From Tenericutes bacterium MZ-XQ (lineage in GTDB: Bacteria > Bacillota_I > Bacilli_A > Acholeplasmatales > Acholeplasmataceae), in assembly GCA_002838205.1 (NCBI GenBank), contig CP017950.1:1060858-1124857 (forward strand): DNA of 64,000 bases, given 5' to 3'. Under the pieces are notes generated by a model that searched no databases, had not been told where the DNA came from, and saw only the letters and a list, made by a program, of their open reading frames with translations. Below are positions 38,901-50,327 of this stretch, piece by piece; within the stretch, counting starts at the first letter, position 1; each line of letters begins with the position of its first letter. A program made the translations under genes and the position numbers.

Positions 38901-39069
38901 AATATAAAATCTCCTTCATTTTATATGTTTTCTCATATACTTTTTTTATATTTAACCTTATATATCATACCATAAAATCATGATATTTCATAATAATCTA
39001 GATAAAATCCAAAAAAAAACTGAGCTTTGGTGATGATTGTTGTTCATATCTCAGATAATTTGATAACAA

Positions 39070-39124
39070 TCACCATAAATCGGATTTTAAATACTAAATA
39101 TTTATTTGAAAAATAGTGTTATAA
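39070..39124. repeat. 55-bp target duplication, left copy (element A)
   Basis: This sequence is repeated exactly at 41123-41177 on the other side of the IS1634-like element. IS1634 of Mycoplasma is known for unusually long and variable target duplications. The duplicated piece holds most of the IS1595-like transposase promoter region. Confidence 0.9.
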
Positions 39125-39150
39125 CCCGAGTTTTATAGTTTGAAAAGAGT

Positions 39151-39195
39151 AAAAGAGACAATCTCCGCTTGATTAGTGGAAGTTAGTCTCTTTTT
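39151..39195 (-). terminator. Terminator of the IS1634-like transposase gene, copy A
   Basis: On the minus strand AAAAGAGAC pairs with GTCTCTTTT at the outer part of a long, imperfect hairpin just after the stop. The same structure is in copy B at 50152-50196. Confidence 0.55.
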
Positions 39196-39199
39196 TGAT

Positions 39200-40915
39200 T
39201 TAAGTGTTTTGTAGTAAAGTAGTAAATTCTCTTTTAATAGTTTCGGATTTGTAGAACTGCTTAGAGAAATCTACTCCATATTTATATGATAATTCTAGGA
39301 TTTCATGATTCACTTTATTCAAATGTAATATTCCATTTGACATTTGAAGTATTTGTGCGCTATTTAAAGCGTCTTTAAGTTTATTTACTGAATACTTGTT
39401 TCCAGTTTCTAGCTGTAATAAACGATAAAGTGTTAATGAGATGAAACAAGTTAAGAAATGGCCTTTTATGTGCTCGTCTGTCCATACATAAACTGGTCTT
39501 CCTTCCAAGTCGCTTTTAGTGACTCTAAATGAATCTTCAATTACGGATAAATTTCTATACTTATCAATGATATCGAATGGTGTTAACTCTAAATCGTTTG
39601 TTACGATTGCGTAATATCCATCCAATGCGATATCTCTTTTGTACTTTTCTTCATTAAATTCATAATGATTCTTAGCTTTTACTATTTCTCCAGTATCTTT
39701 ATCATATACTGTCTTTTTAAAGTATTTCTTTACACCGAATGAGTTTGATGCGTTAAGTAATGATGGGTCATCAATAAACTTTTCTATCTTTTCATCTAGA
39801 ATGCCACGTTTAGCGTGTTGGTATCTTTCTTCCTTTAAACTCCAAAAACACAATAGATGTTCTGTTAATTCATGTTTGATCTTTTTATTATCTTTATCTA
39901 CTTCACCAGTGTCTACAGTACGGATTCTTTTGACTGTTTTATATTTGAACGTACCAGCTTGGTTTTCTATATATCCTTCAGGATCTAATATGATATCTGC
40001 CATTTTGCTTCCACGCATTCGTATCTTTTGGGAAATAATATACTTATCTTTCTTTTGATCAATATAACTAAGGTTTTTTCCACTGTTGTTACCTTTGTCT
40101 CCGACAATGGTAATTTTACCTAAGTTGTATTGTTTTTTTATTTTCGTTAAGATTGGTTGCATTGTACTTAAATCATTTGTACATCCTGGAAACAACTCAT
40201 AGGTTATTGGGATTCCATCTCTATCTATAAATAACCCCATTTGTACTATTCCTGTTTTTTTATTTTCTTTGGATACTCCTTTTTGTCTTAAACCTATCAT
40301 CTCTTCACTTTCAAAGTAATAGTTAGTCACATCATAGAATACTAATGTACAATCACGTCCGTATTCCTTACTGATTCCTTGATGCATGCAATATGTTAAA
40401 TCATCTTTAATTAATGCTAAATAATCAAGTGATTTATAGATGTCTTCCATCTTGAAATCACTTAAATCAAAGAAGTAATTCCCTTTATTCTCATATGTTT
40501 TCTTCTTACTTCCTGGATTAAGACATCTAGAAAACACAAGTAACTTCAATATGTCATCTAAGTCGTATTTTACTCTTGTAGTTTCTTGGTATGCCTTCAT
40601 AAACTTCGATATCCCTATCTTGTTGTAAATTCTCTCTAAGAATACATATCCGTAGTTCAGCAACGAGTTTGATTGTTCTTTGGAGAAATCAATTGTCATT
40701 TCTTGAAAAAGTTGTTCTTCTTTCTCTAAACTCAGTTTCTTCGCTTCTAATCTTAGTTCTTCTAAAATGTTTGGGTTGTCTTTTTCTAACTCTTCTAAAA
40801 TACCGTAACTCTTTATTGTTCGGTGCTTTGGTTTACCGTTTTGATCACGGTAACTCTCAACCAAATATAGAGAATGTGTATTATTTGTTTTTATCTTTAC
40901 CTTTTTTATAAACAT
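39200..40915 (-). CDS. IS1634-family transposase, copy A
   Basis: This DDE transposase of about 571 residues has acidic residues in FYDVTNYYFES and TIVGDKGNNSG, and a Glu in VIEDSFRVTKSDLEGRPVYVW with the family Y-x-W-x-x-x-H pattern. It starts at the ATG at 40915, with AGGAG 10 bases upstream. The frame is open to a TTG at 40924. The protein is identical to copy B, which points to a recent duplication. Confidence 0.92.
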   Translation of the reverse strand: MFIKKVKIKTNNTHSLYLVESYRDQNGKPKHRTIKSYGILEELEKDNPNILEELRLEAKKLSLEKEEQLFQEMTIDFSKEQSNSLLNYGYVFLERIYNKIGISKFMKAYQETTRVKYDLDDILKLLVFSRCLNPGSKKKTYENKGNYFFDLSDFKMEDIYKSLDYLALIKDDLTYCMHQGISKEYGRDCTLVFYDVTNYYFESEEMIGLRQKGVSKENKKTGIVQMGLFIDRDGIPITYELFPGCTNDLSTMQPILTKIKKQYNLGKITIVGDKGNNSGKNLSYIDQKKDKYIISQKIRMRGSKMADIILDPEGYIENQAGTFKYKTVKRIRTVDTGEVDKDNKKIKHELTEHLLCFWSLKEERYQHAKRGILDEKIEKFIDDPSLLNASNSFGVKKYFKKTVYDKDTGEIVKAKNHYEFNEEKYKRDIALDGYYAIVTNDLELTPFDIIDKYRNLSVIEDSFRVTKSDLEGRPVYVWTDEHIKGHFLTCFISLTLYRLLQLETGNKYSVNKLKDALNSAQILQMSNGILHLNKVNHEILELSYKYGVDFSKQFYKSETIKREFTTLLQNT

Positions 40916-41122
40916 AAGAATCAACTCCTATATTCATCATATCATAAATTACTACGATTTACTACAATTATTTTGACTATTTGCTTTTTTATAGTTTGTT
41001 TTATACTTAAAAGCACCTAAATCACTATTTATAGCCATTTAGGTGCTGTTGTATTTGTAGTAAACTTGTTGTATTAATGTTGTTTAGTGCTAGGTTTGTG
41101 AAACTAAACTATAAAACTCGGG

Positions 41123-41177
41123 TCACCATAAATCGGATTTTAAATACTAAATATTTATTTGAAAAATAGTGTTATAA
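41123..41177. repeat. 55-bp target duplication, right copy (element A)
   Basis: This is identical to 39070-39124. It ends with the TTATAA of an extended -10 box (TGTTATAAT, completed by the next base) and thus restores the promoter region of the interrupted IS1595-like element. Confidence 0.9.
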
Positions 41178-41183
41178 TATATA

Positions 41184-41290
41184 CGCCAAACAATTACAAT
41201 AAAAGGAACTATAAAAGCGAGTATTTTATCCTTGAATTGTTTGGCGACGTTCCTTGGGATGAAATACTCGCTTTTGAAGTCTAAGGAACG
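41184..41290 (+). promoter_or_regulatory. Interleaved inverted repeats in the IS1595-like transposase leader, copy A
   Basis: Arm a, CGCCAAACAATT (41184-41195), pairs with AATTGTTTGGCG (41235-41246). Arm b, AAAAGCGAGTATTT (41213-41226), pairs with AAATACTCGCTTTT (41262-41275) and can extend to about 20 bp. The order a-b-a'-b' is interlocked, so both can form only as a pseudoknot. CGTTCCTT (41248-41255) in the b loop is complementary to AAGGAACG (41283-41290), which holds the ribosome binding site AAGGA. The leader may control transposase translation. Confidence 0.75.
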
Positions 41291-41295
41291 TGCAT

Positions 41296-42204
41296 ATGTC
41301 AAAATTGAATAAAGTTTGTCCACTTTGTGGAACAATAGATTCTTCTATTAAACATGGTAAAGATACTAAATGTAGACAAAGGTTTTTATGTAAATCATGT
41401 AATAAATCTTATATCAAAGATTCAAGTAGTCTAAAACATTTAAAATCAAGTGATTATATTTTTAAAAAGTTTTTAGGATTAATGATCGATGATACTACTA
41501 TTGAAGTAATAGCAAGAAACCTCAATATAAATACTAAAACTGTTAACTATTGGAAATTTATAGTATTTAAATCACTAGAGAACCACCAAAATGATATTAA
41601 ACTTAATGGTACTATATTAATAGATGAAACCTTTATTCCAATACGAAATAAAAAATATAAGATATTAAAAAACCTTAACAAAGAGATCCGAGGTATATCC
41701 TATAATCAATTATGTATAATAACAATGATTAATCTATTTGGTAAATCAGTAGCTAAGGTAGTGTCAAGGGCTATGGCTATGCCAGAGCACTACATAAATT
41801 TATTTACCCACAACATAGGGTATGTAGATAAATTTATATATGATGGTAATAAAAGAGGTTTTCAATTTATGAAAGGGTTCAATGTTGAATACATCGATGG
41901 AAAAAGAGATATAACAAATGAGCATTCAACGGATTTAGTTGATCAGTATCACTCAATATTGAAAAGACATATATTTAAACATAATGGTTTTAACATAAAA
42001 AATACGCAACATTATTTAAACTTCTTTGTATATAGACAAAATTACTTGGCATCTCATAATGTTAAAGATATGAGAAGCAAAAACAAAGTTAAAAATAAAA
42101 TGATAGATGATTTGTTCAAAATCATTAAAAACACAAATAAGAAAATCACTTATCTAGATTACATGAAAGACCTGGGAATTGAAGATATATTATTAGCAAT
42201 TTAG
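41296..42204 (+). CDS. IS1595-like transposase, copy A
   Basis: This transposase of about 302 residues has an N-terminal zinc ribbon (CPLCG, then C-x8-C-x2-C in CRQRFLCKSC), a helix-turn-helix (TTIEVIARNLNINTKTVNYWK), and a DDE-type core with Asp and Glu in LIDETFIP, Asp in KFIYDGNKRG, and NEHSTDLVDQYHSILKRHI. The family name is chosen from the zinc ribbon, the DET motif and the 8-bp target duplication. It could be IS1- or ISXO2-related. AAGGA at 41283 with 8-base spacing supports the ATG at 41296. A GTG at 41290 would add two residues. Confidence 0.82.
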   Translation: MSKLNKVCPLCGTIDSSIKHGKDTKCRQRFLCKSCNKSYIKDSSSLKHLKSSDYIFKKFLGLMIDDTTIEVIARNLNINTKTVNYWKFIVFKSLENHQNDIKLNGTILIDETFIPIRNKKYKILKNLNKEIRGISYNQLCIITMINLFGKSVAKVVSRAMAMPEHYINLFTHNIGYVDKFIYDGNKRGFQFMKGFNVEYIDGKRDITNEHSTDLVDQYHSILKRHIFKHNGFNIKNTQHYLNFFVYRQNYLASHNVKDMRSKNKVKNKMIDDLFKIIKNTNKKITYLDYMKDLGIEDILLAI

Positions 42205-42234
42205 AATAAACAACAATCATCACCAAAGCTCAGT

Positions 42235-42276
42235 AAAAAAAATTATCGACTAAATGATTAATTAGTCGATAATTTT
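42235..42276 (-). terminator. Terminator of adhE, with IS insertion in its T-tract
   Basis: AAAATTATCGACTAA and TTAGTCGATAATTTT form a 15-bp stem (42262-42276 and 42239-42253). The T-tract on the minus strand (42242-42235) is exactly the 8-base flank of element A. Confidence 0.85.
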
Positions 42277-46950: not shown

Positions 46951-47142
46951 TTGCCATACCTCCTAATATAAAATATTATACCGTAAAATTTGTAAAACTT
47001 AAACTTTTGCATTTTACCTCAGATAAAAACTTTCTCCCTTGAGTCTTTATAGCCTTAACAATTAAATTTGGTATATATATTATACTAAAAATATGCATTT
47101 TTTCAAATTTTTACTGAGCTTTGGTGATGATTGTTGTTTATT

Positions 47143-48051
47143 CTAAATTGCTAATAATATATCTTCAATTCCCAGGTCTTTCATGTAATCTAGATAAGTG
47201 ATTTTCTTATTTGTGTTTTTAATGATTTTGAACAAATCATCTATCATTTTATTTTTAACTTTGTTTTTGCTTCTCATATCTTTAACATTATGAGATGCCA
47301 AGTAATTTTGTCTATATACAAAGAAGTTTAAATAATGTTGCGTATTTTTTATGTTAAAACCATTATGTTTAAATATATGTCTTTTCAATATTGAGTGATA
47401 CTGATCAACTAAATCCGTTGAATGCTCATTTGTTATATCTCTTTTTCCATCGATGTATTCAACATTGAACCCTTTCATAAATTGAAAACCTCTTTTATTA
47501 CCATCATATATAAATTTATCTACATACCCTATGTTGTGGGTAAATAAATTTATGTAGTGCTCTGGCATAGCCATAGCCCTTGACACTACCTTAGCTACTG
47601 ATTTACCAAATAGATTAATCATTGTTATTATACATAATTGATTATAGGATATACCTCGGATCTCTTTGTTAAGGTTTTTTAATATCTTATATTTTTTATT
47701 TCGTATTGGAATAAAGGTTTCATCTATTAATATAGTACCATTAAGTTTAATATCATTTTGGTGGTTCTCTAGTGATTTAAATACTATAAATTTCCAATAG
47801 TTAACAGTTTTAGTATTTATATTGAGGTTTCTTGCTATTACTTCAATAGTAGTATCATCGATCATTAATCCTAAAAACTTTTTAAAAATATAATCACTTG
47901 ATTTTAAATGTTTTAGACTACTTGAATCTTTGATATAAGATTTATTACATGATTTACATAAAAACCTTTGTCTACATTTAGTATCTTTACCATGTTTAAT
48001 AGAAGAATCTATTGTTCCACAAAGTGGACAAACTTTATTCAATTTTGACAT
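47143..48051 (-). CDS. IS1595-like transposase, copy B
   Basis: The protein is identical to that of copy A (zinc ribbon, helix-turn-helix, DDE core) and its leader is at 48057-48163. Identity over the whole length indicates recent duplication or gene conversion. Confidence 0.85.
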   Translation of the reverse strand: MSKLNKVCPLCGTIDSSIKHGKDTKCRQRFLCKSCNKSYIKDSSSLKHLKSSDYIFKKFLGLMIDDTTIEVIARNLNINTKTVNYWKFIVFKSLENHQNDIKLNGTILIDETFIPIRNKKYKILKNLNKEIRGISYNQLCIITMINLFGKSVAKVVSRAMAMPEHYINLFTHNIGYVDKFIYDGNKRGFQFMKGFNVEYIDGKRDITNEHSTDLVDQYHSILKRHIFKHNGFNIKNTQHYLNFFVYRQNYLASHNVKDMRSKNKVKNKMIDDLFKIIKNTNKKITYLDYMKDLGIEDILLAI

Positions 48052-48056
48052 ATGCA

Positions 48057-48163
48057 CGTTCCTTAGACTTCAAAAGCGAGTATTTCATCCCAAGGAACGT
48101 CGCCAAACAATTCAAGGATAAAATACTCGCTTTTATAGTTCCTTTTATTGTAATTGTTTGGCG
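48057..48163 (-). promoter_or_regulatory. Interleaved inverted repeats in the IS1595-like transposase leader, copy B
   Basis: This is the mirror of 41184-41290, with the same interlocked arms and the same element complementary to the ribosome binding site. Confidence 0.75.
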
Positions 48164-48169
48164 TATATA

Positions 48170-48224
48170 TTATAACACTATTTTTCAAATAAATATTTAG
48201 TATTTAAAATCCGATTTATGGTGA
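48170..48224. repeat. 55-bp target duplication, left copy (element B)
   Basis: This matches 41123-41177 in reverse orientation and repeats at 50223-50277. Confidence 0.9.
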
Positions 48225-50222
48225 CCCGAGTTTTATAGTTTAGTTTCACAAACCTAGCACTAAACAACATTAATACAACAAGTTTACTACAAATACAACA
48301 GCACCTAAATGGCTATAAATAGTGATTTAGGTGCTTTTAAGTATAAAACAAACTATAAAAAAGCAAATAGTCAAAATAATTGTAGTAAATCGTAGTAATT
48401 TATGATATGATGAATATAGGAGTTGATTCTTATGTTTATAAAAAAGGTAAAGATAAAAACAAATAATACACATTCTCTATATTTGGTTGAGAGTTACCGT
48501 GATCAAAACGGTAAACCAAAGCACCGAACAATAAAGAGTTACGGTATTTTAGAAGAGTTAGAAAAAGACAACCCAAACATTTTAGAAGAACTAAGATTAG
48601 AAGCGAAGAAACTGAGTTTAGAGAAAGAAGAACAACTTTTTCAAGAAATGACAATTGATTTCTCCAAAGAACAATCAAACTCGTTGCTGAACTACGGATA
48701 TGTATTCTTAGAGAGAATTTACAACAAGATAGGGATATCGAAGTTTATGAAGGCATACCAAGAAACTACAAGAGTAAAATACGACTTAGATGACATATTG
48801 AAGTTACTTGTGTTTTCTAGATGTCTTAATCCAGGAAGTAAGAAGAAAACATATGAGAATAAAGGGAATTACTTCTTTGATTTAAGTGATTTCAAGATGG
48901 AAGACATCTATAAATCACTTGATTATTTAGCATTAATTAAAGATGATTTAACATATTGCATGCATCAAGGAATCAGTAAGGAATACGGACGTGATTGTAC
49001 ATTAGTATTCTATGATGTGACTAACTATTACTTTGAAAGTGAAGAGATGATAGGTTTAAGACAAAAAGGAGTATCCAAAGAAAATAAAAAAACAGGAATA
49101 GTACAAATGGGGTTATTTATAGATAGAGATGGAATCCCAATAACCTATGAGTTGTTTCCAGGATGTACAAATGATTTAAGTACAATGCAACCAATCTTAA
49201 CGAAAATAAAAAAACAATACAACTTAGGTAAAATTACCATTGTCGGAGACAAAGGTAACAACAGTGGAAAAAACCTTAGTTATATTGATCAAAAGAAAGA
49301 TAAGTATATTATTTCCCAAAAGATACGAATGCGTGGAAGCAAAATGGCAGATATCATATTAGATCCTGAAGGATATATAGAAAACCAAGCTGGTACGTTC
49401 AAATATAAAACAGTCAAAAGAATCCGTACTGTAGACACTGGTGAAGTAGATAAAGATAATAAAAAGATCAAACATGAATTAACAGAACATCTATTGTGTT
49501 TTTGGAGTTTAAAGGAAGAAAGATACCAACACGCTAAACGTGGCATTCTAGATGAAAAGATAGAAAAGTTTATTGATGACCCATCATTACTTAACGCATC
49601 AAACTCATTCGGTGTAAAGAAATACTTTAAAAAGACAGTATATGATAAAGATACTGGAGAAATAGTAAAAGCTAAGAATCATTATGAATTTAATGAAGAA
49701 AAGTACAAAAGAGATATCGCATTGGATGGATATTACGCAATCGTAACAAACGATTTAGAGTTAACACCATTCGATATCATTGATAAGTATAGAAATTTAT
49801 CCGTAATTGAAGATTCATTTAGAGTCACTAAAAGCGACTTGGAAGGAAGACCAGTTTATGTATGGACAGACGAGCACATAAAAGGCCATTTCTTAACTTG
49901 TTTCATCTCATTAACACTTTATCGTTTATTACAGCTAGAAACTGGAAACAAGTATTCAGTAAATAAACTTAAAGACGCTTTAAATAGCGCACAAATACTT
50001 CAAATGTCAAATGGAATATTACATTTGAATAAAGTGAATCATGAAATCCTAGAATTATCATATAAATATGGAGTAGATTTCTCTAAGCAGTTCTACAAAT
50101 CCGAAACTATTAAAAGAGAATTTACTACTTTACTACAAAACACTTAAATCAAAAAAGAGACTAACTTCCACTAATCAAGCGGAGATTGTCTCTTTTACTC
50201 TTTTCAAACTATAAAACTCGGG
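48225..50222 (+). mobile_element. IS1634-like insertion sequence (1998 bp), copy B
   Basis: It has the same ends (CCCGAGTTTTATAGTTT) and is inserted at the same position of the IS1595-like element as in copy A. The nested structure was therefore formed once and then duplicated. Confidence 0.92.
48432..50147 (+). CDS. IS1634-family transposase, copy B
   Basis: The protein is identical to copy A. The ATG at 48432 has AGGAG upstream. The frame is open from a TTG at 48423. The terminator hairpin lies at 50152-50196. Confidence 0.92.
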   Translation: MFIKKVKIKTNNTHSLYLVESYRDQNGKPKHRTIKSYGILEELEKDNPNILEELRLEAKKLSLEKEEQLFQEMTIDFSKEQSNSLLNYGYVFLERIYNKIGISKFMKAYQETTRVKYDLDDILKLLVFSRCLNPGSKKKTYENKGNYFFDLSDFKMEDIYKSLDYLALIKDDLTYCMHQGISKEYGRDCTLVFYDVTNYYFESEEMIGLRQKGVSKENKKTGIVQMGLFIDRDGIPITYELFPGCTNDLSTMQPILTKIKKQYNLGKITIVGDKGNNSGKNLSYIDQKKDKYIISQKIRMRGSKMADIILDPEGYIENQAGTFKYKTVKRIRTVDTGEVDKDNKKIKHELTEHLLCFWSLKEERYQHAKRGILDEKIEKFIDDPSLLNASNSFGVKKYFKKTVYDKDTGEIVKAKNHYEFNEEKYKRDIALDGYYAIVTNDLELTPFDIIDKYRNLSVIEDSFRVTKSDLEGRPVYVWTDEHIKGHFLTCFISLTLYRLLQLETGNKYSVNKLKDALNSAQILQMSNGILHLNKVNHEILELSYKYGVDFSKQFYKSETIKREFTTLLQNT

Positions 50223-50277
50223 TTATAACACTATTTTTCAAATAAATATTTAGTATTTAAAATCCGATTTATGGTGA
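50223..50277. repeat. 55-bp target duplication, right copy (element B)
   Basis: Identical in reverse orientation to 39070-39124, and the partner of 48170-48224. Confidence 0.9.
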
Positions 50278-50327
50278 TTGTTATCAAATTATCTGAGATA
50301 TGAACAACAATCATCACCAAAGCTCAG

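Follow-up and report, generated by a model that had tools for sequence, protein, structure and literature searches.

A conserved interlocked fold in the leaders of IS1595-like transposase genes, a candidate pseudoknot switch

We analysed a 64,000-nucleotide stretch of DNA from Tenericutes bacterium MZ-XQ, referred to below as the window. Directly 5' of an IS1595-like transposase gene, at positions 41184-41290, it contains interlocked inverted repeats in the order a-b-a'-b' together with a segment, c', complementary to the Shine-Dalgarno (SD) sequence. Judging from the comparison of related sequences, a conserved RNA structure is almost certainly present in this transposase leader. The base-pair statistics showed that selection acts on both helices at the RNA level, on the transposase-sense strand, and helix a begins at the predicted +1. 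We infer that the helices limit each other and set access to the ribosome site, and the same holds for simultaneous or partial folding and for the direction of switching. The leader thus has the appearance of an RNA switch, hitherto uncatalogued, by which the amount of transposase is set, and we think it somewhat probable that it is a cis-acting H-type pseudoknot switch on the transposase mRNA of one IS1595-like branch.

Layout of the leader and of the element that carries it

The features of the window that are relevant to this analysis are as follows.

39020-42233, plus strand: IS1595-like element with terminal repeats CTGAGCTTTGGTGATGATTGTTG..., interrupted by an IS1634-family element
39125-41122, minus strand: nested IS1634-family element (transposase 39200-40924; NCBIfam IS1634, E 1.3e-101)
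41170-41178, plus strand: extended -10 box TGTTATAAT of the transposase promoter, ending 6 nt before the arm a core
41184-41195, plus strand: arm a CGCCAAACAATT, perfect 12 bp with a'; its distal part covaries between subfamilies
41185, plus strand: predicted transcription start, first base (G) of the conserved GCCAAAC, placed from the -10 spacing
41203-41209, plus strand: c1, AAGGAAC, an SD copy complementary to c'
41208-41231, plus strand: arm b, 24 positions against b' (21 Watson-Crick, 2 G-U, 1 mismatch)
41235-41246, plus strand: arm a' AATTGTTTGGCG, 12/12 complementary to arm a
41247-41255, plus strand: c' ACGTTCCTT, pairing with the SD over 9 nt and with c1 over 7 nt
41257-41280, plus strand: arm b', partner of arm b
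41283-41289, plus strand: SD sequence AAGGAAC (c2), assigned from sequence, 6 nt before the ATG at 41296
41296-42204, plus strand: IS1595-like DDE transposase, probable ATG start (GTG at 41290 possible)
48049-48163, minus strand: second, identical copy of the leader

The original prediction had described interleaved perfect repeats of 12 and 14 bp, and both are present: a-a' pairs throughout, and the perfect core of b spans 41213-41226 / 41263-41276. The extension of b to a hairpin of about 20 bp was confirmed over the 24 positions listed above. Its two further structural elements were also found, namely the loop segment complementary to the ribosome-binding site (41248-41255, CGTTCCTT, against the SD at 41283-41290, AAGGAACG) and the short upstream SD copy. 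Three crossing pairings are therefore possible in the window leader (a-a', b-b', and c1-c'), with c'-SD as an alternative. Such an arrangement had been called unlikely by chance, and the shuffles bear this out. The interlock score of the leader was 72.5. Its dinucleotide shuffles (300) scored 46 at most, and the best scores in four shuffles of the whole 64-kb window were 44-50. The leader was the top interlock of the window, in which nothing was comparable except the second copy of the same element. The fold of the single strand had a z-score of -4.5, and none of 200 shuffles was equally stable.

In 24 of the 27 interlocked leaders collected (see below), a TATAAT-like hexamer lies upstream of the GCC of arm a at a distance of exactly 6 nt, and in the other three the distance is 5 or 7 nt; hexamers with at least 5/6 matches at the 6-nt spacing are expected in about 4% of shuffles. 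On account of this fixed spacing, the mRNA is expected to begin with arm a, which is a prediction and not a mapped start. Since the structure would begin at the +1 of the element's own promoter, it would also be present in every transcript of its own.

The likely start codon of the transposase is the ATG at 41296, in preference to the GTG at 41290. The protein matched Pfam DDE_Tnp_IS1595 (E 1.9e-5; 25.1 bits, below the curated cut-off of 27) and, as its best NCBIfam match, IS1595 (E 3.4e-16; 59.8 bits, below the equivalog cut-off of 75). Its N-terminal zinc ribbon, with CPLCG..CKSC present, reached 25.6 bits against the IS1/IS1595 zinc domain (cut-off 28, E 1.4e-5). On these matches it is classed as a divergent relative of the IS1595 family. 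Transposases of the window subfamily (41296-42204 in the window) carry VDQYHS, as compared to INxxHS in other IS1595 transposases, and D may replace N as a catalytic-site residue in them. Terminal inverted repeats (TIRs) are clear. The family criterion for IS1595 combines TIRs with an 8-bp target duplication, and the target duplications seemed to be 8 bp in the L008 group and 9 bp, within A/T tracts, in the window subfamily. Apparent 9-bp duplications or A/T runs were noted at 39011-39019 and 42234-42242, as well as at L003-L007, L016, L018, L019, L021, and L036-L038. The window subfamily inserts into A/T runs of at least 7 nt (7-9 nt at the loci just named), several of which form the U-tract of an intrinsic terminator. 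Elements at such sites may be entered by transcripts of neighbouring genes, which suits, and does not prove, a role in read-through.

The nested IS1634-family element is flanked by 55-bp direct repeats (39070-39124 / 41123-41177), which sequence comparison identifies as its target duplication: the uninterrupted element in Tenericutes bacterium MO-XQ (L015/L043, plasmid record CP017949.1) has the same flanking sequence, no insert, and a single 55-bp copy. Because the duplication covered the promoter region, the transposase leader kept its -10 box. The second leader copy belongs to an inverted duplication (39020-42239 / 47108-50327) that is 100% identical over 3220 bp. Conservation between the copies consequently shows nothing, and the earlier argument that the arrangement is kept in both of them is void. 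No matching duplication flanks the copy at 47108-50327, which may therefore have arisen otherwise than by simple transposition.

Relatives and covariation

We collected 27 distinct interlocked leaders, 14 from the window subfamily (S1) and 13 that are more divergent. The S1 leaders, which are distinct sequences from the window's own genome and its relatives, precede transposases that are mostly 48-57% identical, and a covariance model built from them gave strong matches only at such loci, at IS1595-like genes or their remnants. The divergent leaders are those of L008-L014 (seven copies within the window's own genome), L136, L157, L140, L118/L135, L142, L146, L084, L161, L029/L156, L031, and L141. 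A GC-rich leader with complete a, b, and promoter was also found at L119 (reverse strand from 1501); no recognisable transposase adjoins it, and the neighbouring ORF of 97 aa had no Pfam match. L033/L064 (genome G078) is a natural variant with an inversion of the segment that separates the two b arms (the loop of helix b), by which a-a' is destroyed and b is kept; the adjoining transposase match is short (residues 11-75).

The leader was not found in ISSag10, ISCco2, ISCaje5, or the further plasmid-borne IS1595 elements examined, and it was absent from all 33 IS1595-like relatives on viral contigs, on which the pattern matches were coding sequence or simple hairpins. Covariance-model matches at L065, L066, L085, and L087 were rejected as simple hairpins, and those to a loosened core pattern as mostly chance. 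L158, L160, and L162 were left out, as they have palindromes near the start codon and no +1-aligned arm a.

One topology is thus shared by about ten subfamilies with differing arm sequences, whose transposases are often only about 20-57% identical to that of the window. The core of a, GCCAAA...TTTGGCGA, is near-constant, and L029 and L031 have GCTAAA/TTTAGC, corresponding to a compensated change from GCCAAAC/GTTTGGC to GCTAAAC/GTTTAGC. The distal part of arm a and the entire arm b differ between subfamilies and still pair. This is the outcome of the test that the original prediction had proposed, relatives that keep the pairing while the bases vary, and it supports the reading as a pseudoknot or RNA switch.

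To determine the level at which selection acts, stems were set by Watson-Crick seeds and the remaining pairs were scored alike, with G-U and A-C equally allowed. Selection on DNA leaves G-U and A-C at about the same frequency, whereas selection on an antisense RNA gives the reverse ratio. Over the leaders, 988 paired positions comprised 914 Watson-Crick, 55 G-U, 1 A-C, and 18 other pairs; counted as distinct events, G-U outnumbered A-C by 34 to 1 (p 2e-9). This large excess of G-U argues for selection on the RNA of the transposase-sense strand. Within S1, 97.8% of the cells of the named structure were paired, and the covariation score exceeded all 500 shuffles and all slid controls. Five pairs had changed on both sides in S1, a number as high in 4 of 500 shuffles; relatedness inflates such within-S1 covariation counts, and the comparison across subfamilies is independent of them.

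The pairings that involve the SD have a narrower distribution. Own c'-SD pairs beat swapped ones in 4,999 of 5,000 permutations, and own c1-c' pairs did so with 1 of 5,000 permutations as good, relatedness being uncontrolled in both. The proposed SD complementarity in the loop holds for the window subfamily (13/13 members with a complete 3' part) and for L084, and is not universal. As for the competing upstream copy, c1 does covary with c' (AACTAAGGAA/TTCCTTAGTT vs AATCAAGGAA/TTCCTTGATT), in the window subfamily only.

Geometry, the proposed switch, and rival explanations

From their sequences, an H-type pseudoknot layout with a as the first and b as the second helix is predicted for the 27 leaders. 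Linker L2 is mostly 0-8 nt and L3 is 9-23 nt long. The lengths of L1 and of b are 1 nt and 20 bp at locus L084, 3 nt and 16 bp at L119, 5 nt and 21 bp at L146, and 6 nt and 19 bp at L142. By established RNA geometry, a linker of 1-6 nt is unable to span a helix of 16-21 bp, so that a and complete b should be mutually exclusive at these four loci. As both helices are conserved despite this exclusion, they are most simply read as the parts of a switch. In prefix folding of the window leader under a nested model, a-a' was present at 61 nt and was replaced by b-b' from 91 nt.

Predicted pairing of the SD within the leader was seen in the window subfamily, L084, L118, L142, and L161. At the last three loci the SD lies inside b', and none of 60 shuffled leaders was as closed for L118 and L142, as compared to 4 of 60 for L161. 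In S1 and L084 the SD lies outside b, and its complement, c', runs alongside helix a as part of L3; the c'-SD duplex energies in S1 are about -7 to -17 kcal/mol, and the L084 pair is AATCCTCA / TGAGGATT in a subfamily unrelated to that of the window. The nested fold of the window leader has a mostly unpaired SD, since closure by c' needs a pseudoknot, which the folding program cannot score. The L008 group, L141, L029, L031, and L146 have a second SD, closer to the ATG and outside b', for which no closure was measurable.

In the proposed switch, helix a, which uses the first nucleotides of the transcript, would compete with the much longer helix b. Once a has formed, b would be partly unzipped, opening at its end far from a', and c' would be stretched along helix a, leaving the SD free. 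With a open, b would close fully and hide the SD, which lies inside b' in L118, L142, and L161 and would be covered by c' in the b loop in the window family and L084. In addition, c1 could act as a decoy SD that competes for c'. As a would form first during transcription and b later, translation could be limited to a brief period after synthesis and to RNAs whose 5' end is intact; an early SD-open phase during transcription is plausible from the folding model. Our confidence in this mechanism is no more than moderate because the second SDs in the L008 group, L141, L029, L031, and L146 stay unclosed. In these groups, either the leader would act on attenuation or stability instead, or the two SDs would work together. 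A further-reaching claim, which we regard as rather doubtful, is that these leaders form a new transposon RNA class, whose ribosome site would open only upon pairing of the extreme 5' terminus with the loop of a long hairpin. Translation would then be reserved for fresh transcripts that start at the element's own promoter and have kept their 5' end, and RNAs that result from read-through, decay, or refolding would be silent.

Several other roles were weighed against this switch. Helix b and the U-rich stretch behind it in most subfamilies could be a terminator, with the earlier-forming helix a as the anti-terminator. In many leaders a run of TTT to TTTTTT does follow the long b hairpin, and a precedes b in time. 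However, the four T of the window subfamily are paired within b and followed by G, the U-run of L118 and L142 lies between SD and ATG, the U-runs of L141 and L008 are poor, and a terminator scan, which allows loops of 3-8 nt only, found none; such an attenuator is therefore unlikely. Slightly less probable is a 5'-end stability element, in which the paired terminus and the pseudoknot would block decay of the RNase J / RppH type of a rare transposase mRNA. Arm a lies at the exact predicted +1 in nearly all leaders and GCCAAA...TTTGGCGA is almost invariant, as such an element would have it, but the covarying c'-SD pairing and the SD within b' would be left unexplained.

The conserved core of a and the GCGA after a', next to freely varying distal arms, would suit a ligand or protein sensor (riboswitch-like, or the transposase on its own mRNA) with YGGCGAY and GCCAAA as recognition core. 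We consider this improbable, since only transposase leaders were found to carry the structure, with no second gene class among the matches, and core conservation may stem from the transcription start and the pseudoknot geometry. The transposase-binding DNA site that the original prediction offered as an alternative, here near the promoter and leading to autorepression, is highly improbable. In some elements a' (TTGTTTGGCG) resembles the terminal repeat CTGACGTTTGGTG, but the 34 G-U against 1 A-C point to selection on RNA, and terminal repeats vary (CTTTGG, GATGTGG, GAGTGG) whereas arm a is constant (GCCAAACAAT); for the latter reason, we also rejected arm a as a terminal-repeat copy. An HDV-type ribozyme, considered for its a-b-a'-b' order, was rejected because P3/P4 are missing and arm a lies at the promoter +1, and an upstream ORF in the leader because it has stops in several relatives and is not conserved.

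Comparison with known systems

In Rfam 15, the window leader had only sub-threshold matches and none at the gathering threshold, and a search of 15 other loci gave no match on any leader. Rfam sau-19 (RF02386) scored 28.7 bits on the minus strand over a long hairpin (gathering score 80); homology was rejected, as the match is sub-threshold and on the opposite strand and the two other weak matches are unrelated plain hairpins. No paper on an IS1595 leader pseudoknot was found in the literature searched, which covered few subscription journals.

The preQ1 riboswitches are H-type pseudoknot leaders that control SD access. The window leader shares the H-type topology and, by our reading, would share the SD control, but helices in leaders of its type are far longer (10-28 bp), they reside on transposons, and no ligand is known. 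In IS200, access to the SD is blocked by a structure in the 5'-UTR of the transposase mRNA, by which transposase levels are held down; there, however, a simple stem-loop acts with an antisense RNA and Hfq, and the HUH transposase is unrelated. In IS10 and IS50, the translation start of read-through RNA is sequestered in a hairpin, from which the elements' own transcripts escape by starting inside it, whereas the window element's own transcripts would carry the whole structure.

The transposase of ISPpu9 has a long 5'-UTR whose structure likely covers the ribosome site, and weakening this structure raises translation (PMC8450116). A 5'-UTR structure that restricts transposase translation is thus a likeness to the reading proposed here (PMC8450116). 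ISPpu9 differs in its regulation by two small RNAs and in being an unrelated element of Pseudomonas putida, and its abstract describes no interlocked pseudoknot (PMC8450116). With our leaders, covariation in a regulatory pseudoknot of unusually long helices can be studied on a natural set of sequences, and it becomes testable whether the origin or age of an mRNA can be read by a topologically constrained 5'-end fold. Structured leaders that restrain transposases have hitherto been known element by element, whereas here a topology is shared across subfamilies.
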